This document shows positions 5,510-11,911 of a DNA stretch of 33,143 nt, in pieces; within the stretch, counting starts at the first letter, position 1; every line of letters begins with the position of its first letter. Location: NCBI GenBank assembly GCA_029866005.1, contig JARXAE010000014.1:1-33143 (forward strand), in the 5' to 3' direction. The stretch comes from Fimbriimonas sp. (GTDB taxonomy: Bacteria; Armatimonadota; Fimbriimonadia; Fimbriimonadales; Fimbriimonadaceae). Both the position numbers and the translations under genes were made by a program. A model generated the notes under the pieces. It was not told where the DNA came from. It did no database searches and saw nothing but the letters and a program-made list of their open reading frames with translations.

Positions 5510-6979
5510 ATGACCCTCGTCGCACTCGCCCTTGCCCTTTCCTTTGCTCCGCAGTCAACCGACGATGTTGTCGCTAAGATGATCACTGAGGCGAAGACTA
5601 ACTCTCAGGCGATGAAGAGCCTGCAGGATTTGACCTCAAAGTTCGGCCCCCGGCTTACTTCGTCCTCTAACCTTGAGAAGGCAGAAAAGTGGATGATGGA
5701 CCAGTTTAAGCGGGCGGGTTGCACCAACGTTCACCTCGAAGCTTGGGGCTCTATTCCAGTAGGGTTTGATCGAGGTCGAAGCTCGTTCGGCCGAATGAAT
5801 AAGCCGGTCGCTCGGCAGTTTGAGTTCACGTCCCCAAGCTGGACCGAGGGCACGAAAGGGGCGATGAAAGGATTGGCAGTAGTTTGCCCGAAGGACAAGA
5901 CCGAACTTGAGTCAGCTAAGGAAAAGCTGAAGGGGGCTTGGGTGGTGATGGATCGCCAGCCTCGTCGGTCTCGACCGGGTGCGGAAGCACCATCAGCAGA
6001 AGTGCAGGCGCAGATCGATTTGGATTCAGCGATTGATGCCCTCGGAATTGCAGGAAGGGTTTATGGGTCGCGAAGCGAGTTGGTCATTACGTCAGGCAGC
6101 TTCCGAGATAAGACTTTTGAGAAGCACCCGATGGACCGGAGTGTGACGATTCGGAAGTCGGACATGGACGCGCTGAAAGCGTCGATGGCGGAAGGCAAAT
6201 CGGTCGAACTCGAATTCAACTTGGACCAGAAGTTCCGAAAAGGGCCGGTTGTTCAGCACAACGTGATCGCCGAGATTAAAGGGACCGAGAAGCCGGACGA
6301 GGTCGTCATCATCAGCGGGCATATCGATAGCTGGGACGGTCCTGGGGCAGTTGGCGCTTCGGATAATGGAACCGGATCATGCACTGCGCTTGAGGCAGCA
6401 AGGTTGCTCCTCAAGGCGGGAGCAAAGCCGAAGCGCACGATCCGTTTCATTCTGTGGGGCGGAGAAGAGCAAGGGCTTTACGGCTCGCGCAGCTACGTCA
6501 TTCAGCACGAGAAGGAGATGGACAAGATCAGCGCGGTCTTCGTTGACGACGGTGGTAGTAACTACATCGGGGGCTACAACGGTCACCCAGATATGAAGCC
6601 GATGCTTCAGAAAGGAATGGATCAGGTCGTTGCCGCATTCCCTGATTTGCCCATGCGCTACACCGAGCGAGCGAACCCTCGCACCCAGATCGGTTCGGAT
6701 CAGGACAGCTTCAACGCCGTCGGCGTTCCCGGGTTCTTCACCCTCGAGACTGGCTCCGAAAAGTACGGGACGCAGGATTACAACTTCATCCACCACACCC
6801 AGCACGACACCATGAAGTACGTGATCCCCATGTACATGGTCCAGTCTTCGGTCGCCCACGCGGTGGTTGGCTTGCAGGTTGCGAACGCCGACACCATGCT
6901 TCCCCGCTATCCGAAGTTCGAGTACAAGCTCAATCCGGATGGAGTTCCGGGACTTGCCGAGCTTTTGTTGAAGAAATAG
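5510..6979 (+). CDS. secreted M28 family zinc aminopeptidase
   Basis: An exported metallopeptidase of 489 residues, expected to remove N-terminal residues from peptides outside the cytoplasm. A short hydrophobic signal (MTLVALALALSFA) is followed by an alpha-helical N-part. A middle segment (about 85-245) replaces or resembles a PA-type insert. The catalytic domain holds the two-zinc ligand set of M28: SGHIDSW (His271, Asp273), ASDNGTG (Asp285), WGGEEQGLYGS (Glu319-Glu320), VDDGGS (Asp346/347) and a late His in HHTQHD. ATG 5510 is the only ATG start after an in-frame stop at 5489. I see no clear ribosome binding site. It precedes the histidine leader by only 48 bp, on the same strand. The family is certain; the exact substrate is not. 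Confidence 0.93.
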   Translation: MTLVALALALSFAPQSTDDVVAKMITEAKTNSQAMKSLQDLTSKFGPRLTSSSNLEKAEKWMMDQFKRAGCTNVHLEAWGSIPVGFDRGRSSFGRMNKPVARQFEFTSPSWTEGTKGAMKGLAVVCPKDKTELESAKEKLKGAWVVMDRQPRRSRPGAEAPSAEVQAQIDLDSAIDALGIAGRVYGSRSELVITSGSFRDKTFEKHPMDRSVTIRKSDMDALKASMAEGKSVELEFNLDQKFRKGPVVQHNVIAEIKGTEKPDEVVIISGHIDSWDGPGAVGASDNGTGSCTALEAARLLLKAGAKPKRTIRFILWGGEEQGLYGSRSYVIQHEKEMDKISAVFVDDGGSNYIGGYNGHPDMKPMLQKGMDQVVAAFPDLPMRYTERANPRTQIGSDQDSFNAVGVPGFFTLETGSEKYGTQDYNFIHHTQHDTMKYVIPMYMVQSSVAHAVVGLQVANADTMLPRYPKFEYKLNPDGVPGLAELLLKK

Positions 6980-6985
6980 GCACCG

Positions 6986-7148
6986 TTGACAACGTAGGAT
7001 TCAGCATGCAAGACTAGAGGGGTCTTGATGCTGAATCTTCACCGTCACCACCATATCCATCGTCATTGCGCCTAAGTTGCCGCAGTGACGTTCTTGGTTT
7101 GCCGTTCCGCGCGAGCCAACTTTCCCCGAATCTTCCAAAAATTTGAAT
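6986..7148 (+). promoter_or_regulatory. histidine operon leader / attenuator region
   Basis: This 5' region of hisG has several parts. There is a TTGACA hexamer at 6986-6991 with only a weak -10 match (AAGACT, 7010-7015). Hairpin A has arms 6998-7014 and 7022-7037, complementary over 16 pairs with one bulge; its loop and first 3' base hold AGAGGGG. The leader ORF is 7028-7075. Hairpin B pairs CGTCATTGCG (7061-7070) with CGCAGTGACG (7081-7090): ten pairs, one a G-U. Its 5' arm covers the last His codon and its loop holds the stop. Hairpin C pairs 7094-7102 with 7111-7119 (nine pairs, two G-U). AAGTTG (7074-7079) could alternatively pair with CAACTT (7117-7122), which would break C. None of these stems has a run of T after it, so control could be translational rather than by classical termination. 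Structures were folded by eye. Confidence 0.8.
7028..7075 (+). CDS. hisL: histidine-rich leader peptide of the his operon
   Basis: A 15-codon ORF reading MLNLHRHHHIHRHCA, then TAA. Six of the nine residues 5-13 are His, encoded by a mix of CAC and CAT. It is preceded by a good Shine-Dalgarno sequence (AGAGGGG, 7016-7022) five bases before the ATG, and ends 73 bp before the hisG ATG. By analogy with enterobacterial hisL, ribosome stalling at the His codons when charged tRNA-His is scarce would change the folding of the downstream RNA and raise expression of hisGHF-AIE-D. The peptide itself is expected to have no other role. His-codon density, position and ribosome site together make chance unlikely. 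Orthology to hisL is analogy, not homology. Confidence 0.88.
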   Translation: MLNLHRHHHIHRHCA

Positions 7149-8003
7149 ATGAATCTTAAACTTGCCCTCCCTACTGGGCGCATCCAGCAAAACGTGTACA
7201 AGCTTCTTGAGGAAGCAGGAATCCGCATTTCGGGTGGACCGCGCTCCTACCGTCCGACCCTCAGCGCAGACGGGTTTGACACCAAGATTCTGAAGACGCA
7301 GAATATCGTGGAGATGCTCGCGATTGGTCGCCGAGACATCGGTTTTGCCGGGCACGACTGGGTTCGAGAGAAGCGGGCGGACGTCGTTCATCTGCTCGAC
7401 ACAGGGTTTGATAAGGTTCGAATTGTTGTCGCGGCGCCTTCCGGATTTCCGTCGGCGGAGGCTTATCAGGGTCGAACTTTGGTGATTGCGACGGAGTATG
7501 TTCAGCTCGCGCAAGATTGGATTGATCTCAAAGGGATGGATGCGAAGGTCATTCGGAGTTACGGAACGACCGAAGTCTTCCCACCCGAAGATGCGGATTG
7601 CATAGTTGACAACACTTCCACTGGTGAGACGTTGAAGGCTTCTGGTTTGCAAATCATTGATGAGCTGATGCAGTCGTCGACGGCACTTTTTGCCAGCCAA
7701 CAAGCCATGGCTAATCCGGATTTACGCGGACGGATTGAGGACTTTGTTCTCCTCATTCAGTCGGTTCTGGATGCTCGGGATCGGGTGATGGTCGAGGTTA
7801 ATGTCAGCCGAGAGTCGCTTGAGGCGGTCGCCGCTTGCTTGCCGTCGATGCGTCAGCCGACAGTTGCGGCGCTGCATGGCGACGCGGGCTTCGTAGTGAA
7901 GTCGGCGGTGAAGCGAACTGATCTGCCAACTTTAATCCCGTTGATCAAGGCGAAAGGGGGCACCGATATCGTGGTATCTGCGATATCGAACGTGATTCCA
8001 TGA
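7149..8003 (+). CDS. hisG: ATP phosphoribosyltransferase, long form
   Basis: Catalyses the first step of histidine synthesis, ATP plus PRPP to phosphoribosyl-ATP. The 284-residue length and a C-terminal ACT/PII-like regulatory domain (about 215-284, ending GGTDIVVSAISNVIP) identify the long, self-sufficient, His-inhibited form that needs no HisZ. The N-terminus LKLALPTGRIQQNVYKLLEEAGI and the PRPP-loop region DCIVDNTSTGETLKASGL are typical. I start at ATG 7149; a TTG at 7143 would add two residues. No convincing ribosome site precedes it, so its translation may depend on the leader structures. The stop overlaps the hisH start (ATGA, 8000-8003). Confidence 0.97.
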   Translation: MNLKLALPTGRIQQNVYKLLEEAGIRISGGPRSYRPTLSADGFDTKILKTQNIVEMLAIGRRDIGFAGHDWVREKRADVVHLLDTGFDKVRIVVAAPSGFPSAEAYQGRTLVIATEYVQLAQDWIDLKGMDAKVIRSYGTTEVFPPEDADCIVDNTSTGETLKASGLQIIDELMQSSTALFASQQAMANPDLRGRIEDFVLLIQSVLDARDRVMVEVNVSRESLEAVAACLPSMRQPTVAALHGDAGFVVKSAVKRTDLPTLIPLIKAKGGTDIVVSAISNVIP

Positions 8004-8590
8004 GCCGAGTCGTCGGGGTGATCGATACCAAGGTGGCCAACACCGCCAGTATTTTTGCTGGGTTGCGCAGGGCGGGTTTGGAGCCGATTGCGGTTGGGTC
8101 GACCTCGGATTTGGCGGGGCATGAGGCGGTGGTTCTCCCTGGAGTTGGGGTCTTCGCGGCCGGGATGGCGGCGTTGGAACGGATGTCTCTCGTCGAACCA
8201 TTACAGGATTGGATTGCAGCGGATCGACCATTCTTATCAGTCTGTTTGGGAATGCAGCTGCTGTTTGAATCTAGCGAGGAGTCGCCAGGTGTTCGAGGGT
8301 TGGGCGTGGTTTGCGGAGCCGTGACTCGTTTTCCGGATGGAGTCGTGATTCCTCACTTCGGCTGGAACCAGATTGAGTCATCGTCTGACTTCTTCCCTGC
8401 TGGCGACGTGTATTTCGCAAACTCCTTCCGGGCGACCTCGGTGCCGGAAGGGTGGGAAGTCGCGACGTGCGATCATGGCGGTCCGTTTTTGGCAGGCATT
8501 AGCAAAGGCAAAGTTGCGGCGGTTCAATTTCACCCAGAAATTTCGGGACCGGTCGGCGCCACGATTCTGGAGATGTGGGCACGGTGGTAA
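8000..8590 (+). CDS. hisH: imidazole glycerol phosphate synthase, glutaminase subunit
   Basis: Glutamine amidotransferase subunit that supplies ammonia to HisF for making imidazole glycerol phosphate and AICAR. It is a 196-residue class I amidotransferase with nucleophile Cys82 in SVCLGMQLL and His178/Glu180 in VQFHPE completing the triad. VLPGVGVF is the oxyanion-strand region and IPHFGWN is conserved. The N-terminal strand is unusual: VGVIDTKVANTASI where most HisH proteins have a DYGxGN motif. The start overlaps hisG by ATGA and the 3' end overlaps hisF, so subunits would be made together. The family is certain. Confidence 0.96.
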   Translation: MSRVVGVIDTKVANTASIFAGLRRAGLEPIAVGSTSDLAGHEAVVLPGVGVFAAGMAALERMSLVEPLQDWIAADRPFLSVCLGMQLLFESSEESPGVRGLGVVCGAVTRFPDGVVIPHFGWNQIESSSDFFPAGDVYFANSFRATSVPEGWEVATCDHGGPFLAGISKGKVAAVQFHPEISGPVGATILEMWARW

Positions 8591-9336
8591 CCAAACGCAT
8601 CATCCCTTGCCTCGATTGCCGCGATGGTCGCGTTGTGAAGGGGGTCAACTTTCAGGGATTGCAGGACGCAGGATCTCCGGTCGAACTTTCTCTGCGCTAC
8701 CAGGAAGAAGGCGCCGATGAGATCGTGATTCTCGATGTCGGCGCAACAGTCGAGGGCAGACAGAATCAACTAGAAACGATTCGGGCAGTGCGTGCGGACC
8801 TTGCGATTCCGTTGACAGTGGGTGGCGGGGTGCGTGAGCTTCGAGATATTGAGGCGCTGCTAGAAGCCGGGGCGGATAAGGTTTCGATCAATACGGCTGG
8901 GGTTGATCGCCCGGAGTTTATTCGGGAAGCTTCGGAGGCTTTCGGCGCGCAATGCACAGTAGTCGCCATTGACACCAAGTGGACCTACAACCGATGGAGC
9001 GTATTGACCCGAGCCGGCCGAGATGTTCGAGATATCGATACTCTTGAATGGTGCCGCCAGGTCGCCGAGCTTGGCGCCGGGGAGATCCTACTCACCAGTT
9101 TTGACCGAGACGGCACAAAGGAGGGTTACGATCTGAAGCTTCTTCGGGCGGCCAGTTCTGCGGTCAGTATCCCCATCATCGCCAGCGGCGGGGCTCGGGT
9201 TGCCGACGACCTTTATGACGCCTTCGAGGCGGGAGCCAACGCGGCGCTTGCTGCATCGATTTTCCACTACGACAGCCTGCACATTTCTGACATCAAAGCG
9301 CATCTCGCCCAACGCGGAGTCACGGTAAGACAATGA
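8584..9336 (+). CDS. hisF: imidazole glycerol phosphate synthase, cyclase subunit
   Basis: TIM-barrel cyclase that uses ammonia from HisH to turn PRFAR into imidazole glycerol phosphate and AICAR. With the GTG at 8584 the protein begins MVTKRIIPCLD, which aligns with usual HisF N-termini and places catalytic Asp at 11. The second catalytic Asp is in VAIDTK, and LLTSFDRDGTKEGYD plus IIASGGA are the phosphate-binding regions. A GTG at 8575 would add three residues and cannot be excluded. It overlaps the hisH stop by 7 bp and the next gene by ATGA (9333-9336). Confidence 0.97.
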   Translation: MVTKRIIPCLDCRDGRVVKGVNFQGLQDAGSPVELSLRYQEEGADEIVILDVGATVEGRQNQLETIRAVRADLAIPLTVGGGVRELRDIEALLEAGADKVSINTAGVDRPEFIREASEAFGAQCTVVAIDTKWTYNRWSVLTRAGRDVRDIDTLEWCRQVAELGAGEILLTSFDRDGTKEGYDLKLLRAASSAVSIPIIASGGARVADDLYDAFEAGANAALAASIFHYDSLHISDIKAHLAQRGVTVRQ

Positions 9337-10592
9337 TTATTCCAAGCATCGACCTTCAAAGCGGCAAAGCCGTTCAGCTCATCGGCGGAAAGGAGTTTGC
9401 CCTTGACGGCGGCGACCCGATGGCGTGGGCGAGAGAGTTCGGGATTGCCGGAGAGATTGGGGTTATCGACCTTGATGCAGCCCTCGGCACTGGCAATAAT
9501 CGCGAGACCATTTTAGGCATTTTGAAAGATCATCGCTGCCGAGTCGGCGGCGGCATTCGAACTATTGAGGATGCTCTGTTTTACTTGGATCACGGTGCAT
9601 TGCAAGTGATCATCGGAACCAAGGCAACGCCTGAGTTCTGCGCTCAACTCCCTCGCGAAAGGGTGATGGCGGCTTTGGATACCGTGTATGGCGAGGTCGT
9701 GGTCGACGGATGGCAAACCAACACAAAGAAGCCAATTGAAGAGCGCATCGCTGAATTACGCGATCATGTTGGCGGCTTTTTGGTGACCTTCGTTGAGCGC
9801 GAGGGAAGGATGGTGACCATGGATATGGATCGCTGCCGGGCTTTGAAGGAGCTTTGTGGGGATGTTCCGCTAACGGTTGCTGGCGGGCTTTCGACGGTTG
9901 AGGAAGTTGCCGAACTCGATGCGATGGGCATCGATGTCCAAGTGGGAATGGCTCTCTACACGCGCAAGATTGACTACATCGACTGTGTGCTTTCTCCAAT
10001 CAAACGACGGCTTCCAGATCAGCTTTGGCCGACGGTTGTTGCCGATCAGCAAGGCCGGTCGCTCGGGTTGGTTTGGAGCAGTGAGGAGTCAGTGCGACTT
10101 GCAGCGAAGGAGCGAAGGGGAACCTACTACTCCCGATCACGACAGGAGATTTGGCGCAAGGGCGAGACCAGTGGCGCGGTTCAGGAGCTTTTGAGGATCG
10201 ATTTGGATTGTGATCGCGACGCGCTTCGGTTTACGGTTCGGCAGACCGGCTCTGGGTTCTGCCATCACCAGACTGACTCATGCTGGGGTGACCTTGGCGG
10301 GTTACCTGCTCTTCAATCGACGCTTATGGCTAGAAAGCAGGATGCTCCTGTGGGTTCGTATTCGGCTCGTCTCTTTAACGAAGAAGGCTTGCTTGAGAGC
10401 AAGTTGACCGAGGAGGCGCAAGAGTTGGCGGATGCGATAGGGCGGGAGCACATCATCGCCGAGGCCGCCGACCTGATCTATTTCGCCACCGCGAAACTGG
10501 TGCAGAACGACATCTCGCTTTCAGAGGTCGAAAAAGAGCTTGATCGGCGCAGTAAAAAGATCAGCCGGCGAGGAGGCGACCGGAAGGCATGA
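9333..10592 (+). CDS. hisA/hisI/hisE: fused HisA isomerase - HisI cyclohydrolase - HisE pyrophosphohydrolase
   Basis: A single 419-residue reading frame carrying three histidine enzymes. Residues 1-225 are HisA (ProFAR isomerase), a TIM barrel with MIIPSID (Asp7), VGGGIR, ALDT (Asp116) and TVAGGL; the usual TDIxxDGT loop is changed to TFVEREG, but the Thr is kept. Residues 228-320 are HisI (phosphoribosyl-AMP cyclohydrolase), with SRSRQEIWRKGETSG at 267-281, the metal motif DCDRD at 292-296, and CHH (310-312) with Cys317 for zinc. Residues 325-415 are HisE (phosphoribosyl-ATP pyrophosphohydrolase), with EEAQEL and EAADLIYF. Catalytic residues of all three look intact and no stop or frameshift separates them. 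It overlaps hisF and hisD by ATGA on both sides. HisIE fusions are common; a HisA-HisIE fusion is not one I know as standard. Confidence 0.95.
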   Translation: MIIPSIDLQSGKAVQLIGGKEFALDGGDPMAWAREFGIAGEIGVIDLDAALGTGNNRETILGILKDHRCRVGGGIRTIEDALFYLDHGALQVIIGTKATPEFCAQLPRERVMAALDTVYGEVVVDGWQTNTKKPIEERIAELRDHVGGFLVTFVEREGRMVTMDMDRCRALKELCGDVPLTVAGGLSTVEEVAELDAMGIDVQVGMALYTRKIDYIDCVLSPIKRRLPDQLWPTVVADQQGRSLGLVWSSEESVRLAAKERRGTYYSRSRQEIWRKGETSGAVQELLRIDLDCDRDALRFTVRQTGSGFCHHQTDSCWGDLGGLPALQSTLMARKQDAPVGSYSARLFNEEGLLESKLTEEAQELADAIGREHIIAEAADLIYFATAKLVQNDISLSEVEKELDRRSKKISRRGGDRKA

Positions 10593-11911
10593 TCTCGATA
10601 TACAAATACGCAGAGCTCGGGGAGGCGGATCGAAAGCGGCTGATGCGGCGGAGCCAGGCTTCGCTGGTAGAGATTGCGCCCACGGTTCAGAACTGGCTTC
10701 TACGGGTCGAGGAAGAGGGTGATTATGCAGTTCTTGACTATCTCAAGACCTTCGACCTGAAGAACGAGAGACTTGGATGGCAAGCTGTCTCTGACTTCCG
10801 ACTTGAAGTCTCTGCTGAAGACGTTGATCGAGCTTACGCGGACCTTGACACGGACTTGATTGAGGCGATTAGGAAACAAGTCGAGTTATCGCGGAAGTTT
10901 CACACCGAGTATGCCGCGACCCTTTTGGGTGATTGGGAAACGGTTCAGTCTGAAGGTGTTCGAGCGGGCTATCGTCGGGTGCCAATGGCTCGGGCAGGTT
11001 TGTACGTTCCGGCCGGAAAGGCTGCGTTACCAACGGTGGCACAAATCCTCACGGTTGCGGCAAAAGCGGCTGGAGTAGGGACAACCGTCGTGACATTCCC
11101 ACCCTGCCCTTGGGAGAGTGAGGCAGCGATCATTGTTGCCGCCAAGGAAGCTGGAGCGGATCGGCTGTTTCGGATTGGCGGAATTGCTGCTATCGGTGCC
11201 CTTGCGTTCGGAACGGAGTCCGTTCCTCAAGTTGATAAGATTGCGGGACCGGGGAACCTGTATGTTCAGGCAGCCAAGCTGTTTGTTTCGGATCGTGTCG
11301 GAATCGACATGTTTGCGGGACCAAGCGAGGCGATGTTTATCGCCGATGAGACTGCCAATCCAGCATTTTTGGCGGCGGATGTTCTTGGTCAATGCGAGCA
11401 CGGACCAGATTCGGCCGGAGTCGTTGTAACGACCTCTGAGTCGATGGCAAAAGCTGTTCAGTCTGAGATTTCCTTGCAGTTGAGTCAACTTGATCGAAAC
11501 GCGTATGCCGCGACGGCACTTGAGCGATACTCTGCGATCCTTGTTTTTGAAACTGAGGCCGCGCTTCTCACCTATGTCGACGAATACGCTCCGGAACACC
11601 TGGAGATCCAGACGGCAGACCCACAAGAGATTCTTGGCAAGCTCAGAAATGTCGGATCGGCCTTCCTAGGTCAGTTCTCCCCAATTGCGGCTGGAGACTA
11701 TGCCACCGGGACAAACCATACTCTCCCGACTGGTGGTGCGGCGCGATATGCCTCGGCGGTGAGCCCAGAGACGTTCATGCGAACGATACAGTTCCAAGAT
11801 GCGACTCAAGCTGGATTGAAGAGTCTTGAGTCGATCGTGACTCCGATTGCAAACGCCGAGGGACTGACCGCACACCGAGATTCAGTAAAAATACGAAACA
11901 CCTCTGCATGA
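10589..11911 (+). CDS. hisD: histidinol dehydrogenase
   Basis: Last enzyme of the pathway: zinc-dependent, two-step NAD oxidation of L-histidinol to L-histidine. The 440 residues include GLYVPAGKAALPTV, KIAGPGNLYVQAAK and IDMFAGPSEAMFIAD. Zinc ligands are Gln268 and His271 in GQCEHGPDS (most family members have SQAEHDP), Asp370 in AAGDYATGTNHTLPTGG, and His429 near the C-terminus. The catalytic Glu336-His337 pair lies in YAPEHLEI. It is the last gene of the his cluster, overlapping the fusion gene by ATGA. No terminator is visible in the 27 bp before the next gene. hisB, hisC and the histidinol-phosphatase are not in the window. Confidence 0.97.
   Translation: MISIYKYAELGEADRKRLMRRSQASLVEIAPTVQNWLLRVEEEGDYAVLDYLKTFDLKNERLGWQAVSDFRLEVSAEDVDRAYADLDTDLIEAIRKQVELSRKFHTEYAATLLGDWETVQSEGVRAGYRRVPMARAGLYVPAGKAALPTVAQILTVAAKAAGVGTTVVTFPPCPWESEAAIIVAAKEAGADRLFRIGGIAAIGALAFGTESVPQVDKIAGPGNLYVQAAKLFVSDRVGIDMFAGPSEAMFIADETANPAFLAADVLGQCEHGPDSAGVVVTTSESMAKAVQSEISLQLSQLDRNAYAATALERYSAILVFETEAALLTYVDEYAPEHLEIQTADPQEILGKLRNVGSAFLGQFSPIAAGDYATGTNHTLPTGGAARYASAVSPETFMRTIQFQDATQAGLKSLESIVTPIANAEGLTAHRDSVKIRNTSA

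Follow-up and report, generated by a model that had tools for sequence, protein, structure and literature searches.

In the accessible portions of the sources cited here, the descriptions of histidine (His) attenuation concern gamma-Proteobacteria and certain Firmicutes (PMC9413887, PMC2965389). Among the latter, His attenuators occur in the Bacillus cereus group, Peptostreptococcaceae and Erysipelotrichales (PMC9413887), and a hisS leader is reported from bacilli (PMC2965389). According to Naville and Gautheret, hardly any attenuator in Acidobacteria had an assigned function (PMC2965389). His-containing leader peptides in Actinobacteria were presented in a conference paper (cited in PMC4833913). 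Mycobacteria carry leaderless short open reading frames (ORFs) with polycysteine runs (Canestrari et al. 2020, cited in PMC9031893), candidates for which were first reported in PMC4633059. Our full-text literature search, from which subscription papers were mostly out of reach, returned no His leader in Armatimonadota and no leaderless His leader.

The window, a 33,143-nucleotide stretch of Fimbriimonas sp. DNA, contains a short ORF whose peptide of 15 residues holds six His at residues 5-13. Its ATG is at 7028 and its TAA at 7073-7075, and 73 bp (7076-7148) separate this stop codon from the hisG ATG at 7149 (Table 1). The original prediction had described this ORF, judged its His density improbable by chance and called it a hisL analogue. 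Direct reading of the sequence matched the description. The two strands of the window together hold 612 short ORFs of 8-60 aa, among which only the His leader had six His in nine residues; the next best, a single ORF, had four, and none had five. Given the base composition, the probability of at least six His in nine codons was about 5e-8. A genome-wide count of CAYCAYCAY gave 407 matches and was dropped as evidence, because so common a motif is uninformative. Judged from sequence comparison, the ORF is a genuine His leader, and “hisL analogue” is the right functional reading because such leaders are conserved in relatives and far beyond the phylum.

Table 1. Features of the leader region and his operon in the window, and leaders of related genomes
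Feature	Position	Strand	Description
Predicted -35 box	6986-6991	+	TTGACA; part of the top-scoring sigma70-like promoter found within 60 nt of the leader start; conserved in L003 and L004
Inverted repeat	6998-7037		Arms GATTCAGCAT (6998-7007) and ATGCTGAATC (7028-7037); inner AAGAC/GTCTT; spans the -10 box and the leader start
Predicted extended -10	7007-7015	+	TGC + AAGACT (hexamer 7010-7015); 18-nt spacer to the -35 box
His leader ORF	7028-7075	+	MLNLHRHHHIHRHCA, then stop; read directly; counterparts in L003-L009, L112, L114 and many other phyla
Hairpin 1:2	7061-7090	+	5' arm codons 12-15 (CGT CAT TGC G); loop containing the stop codon; 3' arm GCAGTGACG
Hairpin 3:4	7094-7119	+	TTGGTTTGC...GCGAGCCAA; -11.6 kcal/mol
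hisG	7149-8003	+	Long form (HisG + HisG_C, Pfam); start from alignment with relatives; first gene of the operon
hisH	8000-8590	+	Named from domains and operon position
hisF	8575-9336	+	Named from domains and operon position
hisA-hisI-hisE fusion	9333-10592	+	HisA, HisI (PRA-CH) and HisE (PRA-PH) in one 419-aa protein
hisD	10589-11911	+	Last gene of the operon stretch 8000-11911
L003 leader			MLSLHHHHHIHHHCA; before hisG, Fimbriimonadales
L004 leader			MLNLLHHHHIHHHCA; before hisG, Fimbriimonadales
L005 leader			MSGFFRHHHHSGHHHA; before hisG, Fimbriimonadales
L006 leader			MTGFFRHHHHSHHHHA; before hisG, Fimbriimonadales
L007 leader			MNGFFHHHHTSHHLA; before hisG, Fimbriimonadales
L008 leader			VSRNEVFQGHHHHGLDEAGS; before hisG, Fimbriimonadales
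L009 leader			...VGFVHHHHSDLRPV; before hisG, Fimbriimonadales
L112 leader			MFVLGHHHHAHSPAG; before hisG, Fimbriimonadales
L114 leader			VTKSRFANQHHHHHHV; before hisG, Fimbriimonadales

We screened 113 genomes, taken to be Fimbriimonadales from the labels of near relatives (Fimbriimonas sp., Armatimonadetes), 13 of which carry the window's hisG type. A His-rich short ORF preceded hisG in 10 out of these 13 genomes, the window included, and L010, L011 and L113 had no His-rich leader before hisG. Alignment of the hisG upstream regions, the check proposed along with the prediction, revealed His leaders at the equivalent site in relatives, with CAC and CAT interchanged: the L003 and L004 leaders differ by three synonymous CAY changes, and those of L005 and L006 by one. 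The other hisG type in Fimbriimonadales is about 33% identical to the window's type, and no leader was found directly before it among the Fimbriimonadales loci examined. Six further Fimbriimonadales genomes carry a His leader before hisI (L012, L013, L208, L211, L212 and L213). No leader was found at the hisI loci L175-L204, and a further hisI set included four genomes with one. We also observed that hisI is immediately preceded by a GC-rich hairpin and a U-run in L208 and L211-L213, and that a GC-rich hairpin and its U-rich tail follow the leader in L012 and L013.

Sampling the GTDB genome set for 80 loci with the window's hisG type revealed many more His leaders, in Planctomycetota (mostly Phycisphaerae), Sumerlaeota, Myxococcota/Deltaproteobacteria, Acidobacteriota, Spirochaetota, Actinomycetota and others, the phylum names being those on the records of metagenome-assembled genomes (MAGs). 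Across the sampled loci, we counted 46 dense-His short ORFs upstream of hisG, a few of them duplicates from the same genome sampled twice, compared with 4 in a control made up of the reverse strand and downstream sequence. A large Geminicoccaceae-type clade with the window's hisG type had no leader among the loci examined. The leader regions of L095 (labelled Coriobacteriia) and L096 (labelled Gemmatimonadetes) are identical; therefore, the taxonomic label or the binning of at least one of the two must be wrong.

The genes of the operon, hisGHF(AIE)D, overlap at their ends. PRA-CH lies in a frame of 420-600 aa in exactly the 13 Fimbriimonadales genomes that have the window's hisG type; elsewhere its frames are shorter, G027 (472 aa) being the one exception. 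In a quick HisG tree with many weak forks, the Fimbriimonadales rows were scattered among other phyla. This scatter, together with the long hisI frame tracking the window's hisG type, suggests that the his operon and its leader moved as a unit, which we treat as a lead given the weak resolution of the tree.

The predicted promoter of the window places the expected transcription start at 7022-7024. Its -10 box lies 12 nt before the leader ATG, a spacing that exceeds that of most leaders and predicts a 5' untranslated region of about 4-6 nt. In L005-L007, TGC + AATACT occurs ten nt before the leader ATG. We surveyed 38 non-redundant leaders, setting start codons by a fixed rule and scanning a 70-nt range in each for its best sigma70-like promoter. 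The -10 box ended 6-13 nt before the leader start codon in 30 out of 38 leaders. By eye, several of the remaining leaders (for example, L009, L066 and L108) have an alternative start codon at this distance, which in L009 is the ATG of MRSMVGF, 7 nt after TATCAT. Promoter scores in the 6-13-nt slot reached p ≤ 0.05 in 26 out of 34 leaders when compared with other upstream positions and in 25 out of 34 when compared with shuffles (Fisher, about 1e-25). No Shine-Dalgarno signal preceded the 38 leaders, the anti-Shine-Dalgarno energy being equal to that of shuffles. The leaders before hisI from the further hisI set agree with this pattern and have, by eye, TATCTT, TAACTT, TAAGTT or TAAAGT 8-9 nt before a start codon.

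The motif AGAGGGG (7016-7022), which the original prediction had taken for a good ribosome site, probably is not one. The -10 box precedes it and the expected transcription start comes at or just after its end, so that it falls mostly outside the predicted mRNA. We rejected a Shine-Dalgarno-led leader as the likely reading because the motif precedes this start, is altered to ACAAGGG in L004 and has no counterpart in L005-L007. The promoter position points to a leader ORF that is leaderless or almost leaderless, and a leaderless start looks like a family-wide trait of His leaders. A TANACT-like box also stands a few nt before the ATG of the other hisG type in L016, L018, L020, L021, L023, L025 and L030, promoters hinting that leaderless mRNAs are common in Fimbriimonadales. 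Upstream of the his promoter, an M28 peptidase gene ends at 6979, 7 nt before the start of the -35 box, with no terminator between the two (6977-6991), and transcription from this gene could possibly read through into the leader.

At most loci outside the window's clade, we found a GC-rich hairpin and U-rich run starting 24-38 nt after the leader stop codon. The common form of this terminator-like hairpin is ACGCCGGCC...GGCCGGCGT, followed by the U-rich run. The d'Aubenton-Carafa score was positive in 16 out of 38 cases, and most hairpins beat composition shuffles. In the predicted antiterminator, the last part of the ORF, stop codon included (for example, GGUCGGGUGAUGGU), pairs with ACCAUC..ACGCCGACC, the 5' arm of the terminator, with an energy of approximately -15 to -25 kcal/mol for the majority of the wider family. 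The pairing was better than shuffles (p ≤ 0.05) at 13 out of 36 loci, all outside the window's clade, with a mean energy of -17.3 for native pairs versus -14.9 for swapped pairs. By these predicted folds, the wider family has the layout of classical His attenuation, with a terminator and an alternative antiterminator: a ribosome at the stop codon would allow the terminator to form, and one stalled at the His codons would allow the antiterminator to form.

In the six-species clade that includes the window, hairpin 1:2 was the top-ranked terminator-like hairpin from the leader to hisG+220 in six out of six members. Its energy in the window is -15.2 kcal/mol and its tail TTCTT (7091-7095; d = -15.3); the tail is T6 in L003 and L004 (d = +12.6) and poorer in L005-L007 (d negative). 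Hairpin 1:2 is probably a pause or terminator hairpin. Hairpin 3:4 (d = -46.8 in the window) is followed by a pyrimidine tract, CTTTCCCC (7120-7127), C/U-rich and G-free, instead of a U-run. This hairpin is invariant in L002-L004, and the sequence 3' of it diverges. We detected one compensatory pair in hairpin 1:2 (AU to GC, between L003/L004 and the window) and one in the counterpart of hairpin 3:4 (L006 versus L005/L007), single changes among three sequences per subclade that did not rise above shuffles and are only suggestive.

Between the leader and hisG, the window has no canonical terminator, that is, no hairpin with d > 0. A terminator hidden in early hisG was likewise rejected, as none with d > 0 was found up to hisG+220. 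The missing U-run terminator after the leader is no genome-wide habit, because U-run terminators occur (2138-2172 in the window). We also rejected a classical antiterminator for the clade: the best pairing in the six members (-3.8 to -8.8 kcal/mol) was no better than that of shuffles (p = 0.55-0.995).

By its anatomy, ribosome-mediated, His-responsive attenuation is well supported as the predicted function of the leader. For the window, we consider it likely that the leader acts as a His-starvation attenuator of hisGHF(AIE)D on an mRNA that starts a few nt before the leader ATG. From the ORF, its conservation, the promoter spacing and the hairpins, we infer the following course of transcription start, translation, stalling and, in the clade, termination. 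RNA polymerase would start a few nt before the leader ATG, and because of this start, the first ribosome, loading on a leaderless or near-leaderless mRNA, would trail the polymerase closely. With ample charged His-tRNA, the ribosome would pass the His codons to the stop codon, and transcription would usually stop within the leader. A shortage of His-tRNA would make the ribosome stall on the His codons and disrupt the hairpin that they form with the sequence after the stop codon, whereupon the polymerase would continue into hisG. The sensing half of this scheme is well supported in the window's clade and the output half is less certain there. The end signal in the clade may be either the stop-codon hairpin, whose U-run is good in two species and partial in the window, or hairpin 3:4 with its pyrimidine tail, perhaps assisted by Rho or other factors.

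The output could be organized differently. One possible but doubtful form for the clade is a two-state attenuator with a leaderless leader and no antiterminator, in which the last His codons, the stop codon and their complement would form the terminator; here, a stalled ribosome on the 5' arm of the hairpin alone would block termination. An unlikely alternative is that the leader senses histidine and acts on the translation of hisG or on its coupling, through re-initiation or access to the start, and not on termination. Such a control would suit a clade that lacks a canonical terminator or antiterminator and a hisG that begins only 73 nt past the leader stop codon with no clear Shine-Dalgarno site, and attenuators that sequester the ribosome-binding site are known (PMC9413887). 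However, when we folded the six clade members with the ribosome at several positions, the hisG start was mostly open for every position (unpaired 0.59-0.96, near-constant within each member). A sequestered start was therefore rejected, with no obvious sequestrator predicted, and the terminators carried by the wider family and by other Fimbriimonadales also argue against translational control.

Control could also lie outside the RNA. The inverted repeat, with 10-bp arms and a 5-bp inner repeat over the -10 box and leader start, is possibly the operator of some regulator, as its conservation would allow: the arms are perfect in L004 and have one mismatch in L003, and they are kept in L004 although the -35 gap and the loop differ. 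It is nevertheless very unlikely that a DNA-binding repressor at this repeat mainly rules the operon, leaving the leader secondary or vestigial. The repeat is absent in L005-L007, which still have a His leader, the His codons persist through synonymous change, and the right arm of the repeat doubles as leader coding sequence. As for the His run being chance or the by-product of an RNA hairpin, and untranslated, the CAY repeats could be kept for pairing because the 5' arm of a conserved hairpin is made up of the final His codons. But the in-frame start, His codons and stop codon are kept across distant phyla whose hairpins differ, and both the excess over the control and the standing of the leader as the only such ORF in the window speak against this explanation, to which we give almost no credence.

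The leader is not a member of the Rfam His_leader family (RF00514): there was no Rfam match in the window or in 16 related loci, and neither gathering nor relaxed thresholds brought up anything meaningful. No T-box match from Rfam was found in the window. Like enteric hisL (RF00514), the leader is a small ORF immediately upstream of hisG that contains a run of His codons, and these codons form hairpins with downstream sequence, with a terminator and antiterminator predicted in the wider family. Unlike hisL, it coincides with or adjoins the predicted transcription start and has no Shine-Dalgarno site, and the window's clade has neither a canonical terminator nor a canonical antiterminator. The Firmicutes attenuators likewise combine a His-rich leader peptide with a terminator and an antiterminator before his genes; the leaders reported here belong to other phyla, and leaderless leaders are not mentioned in the accessible portions of the Firmicutes sources (PMC9413887, PMC2965389).

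By analogy, the closest parallel for the leader start is provided by the mycobacterial leaderless polycysteine attenuators, in which, according to secondary accounts, a short leaderless ORF containing repeats of one codon attenuates its cognate operon. Those ORFs encode cysteine and belong to Actinomycetota, whereas the present leaders encode histidine and are accompanied by terminators in most of the family. His attenuation can now be traced to Armatimonadota and to MAGs of several other phyla with the same hisG type. This distribution suggests that leaderless initiation may be a general way to put a ribosome right behind the polymerase for attenuation, in which case leaderless attenuation would be no peculiarity of mycobacteria.
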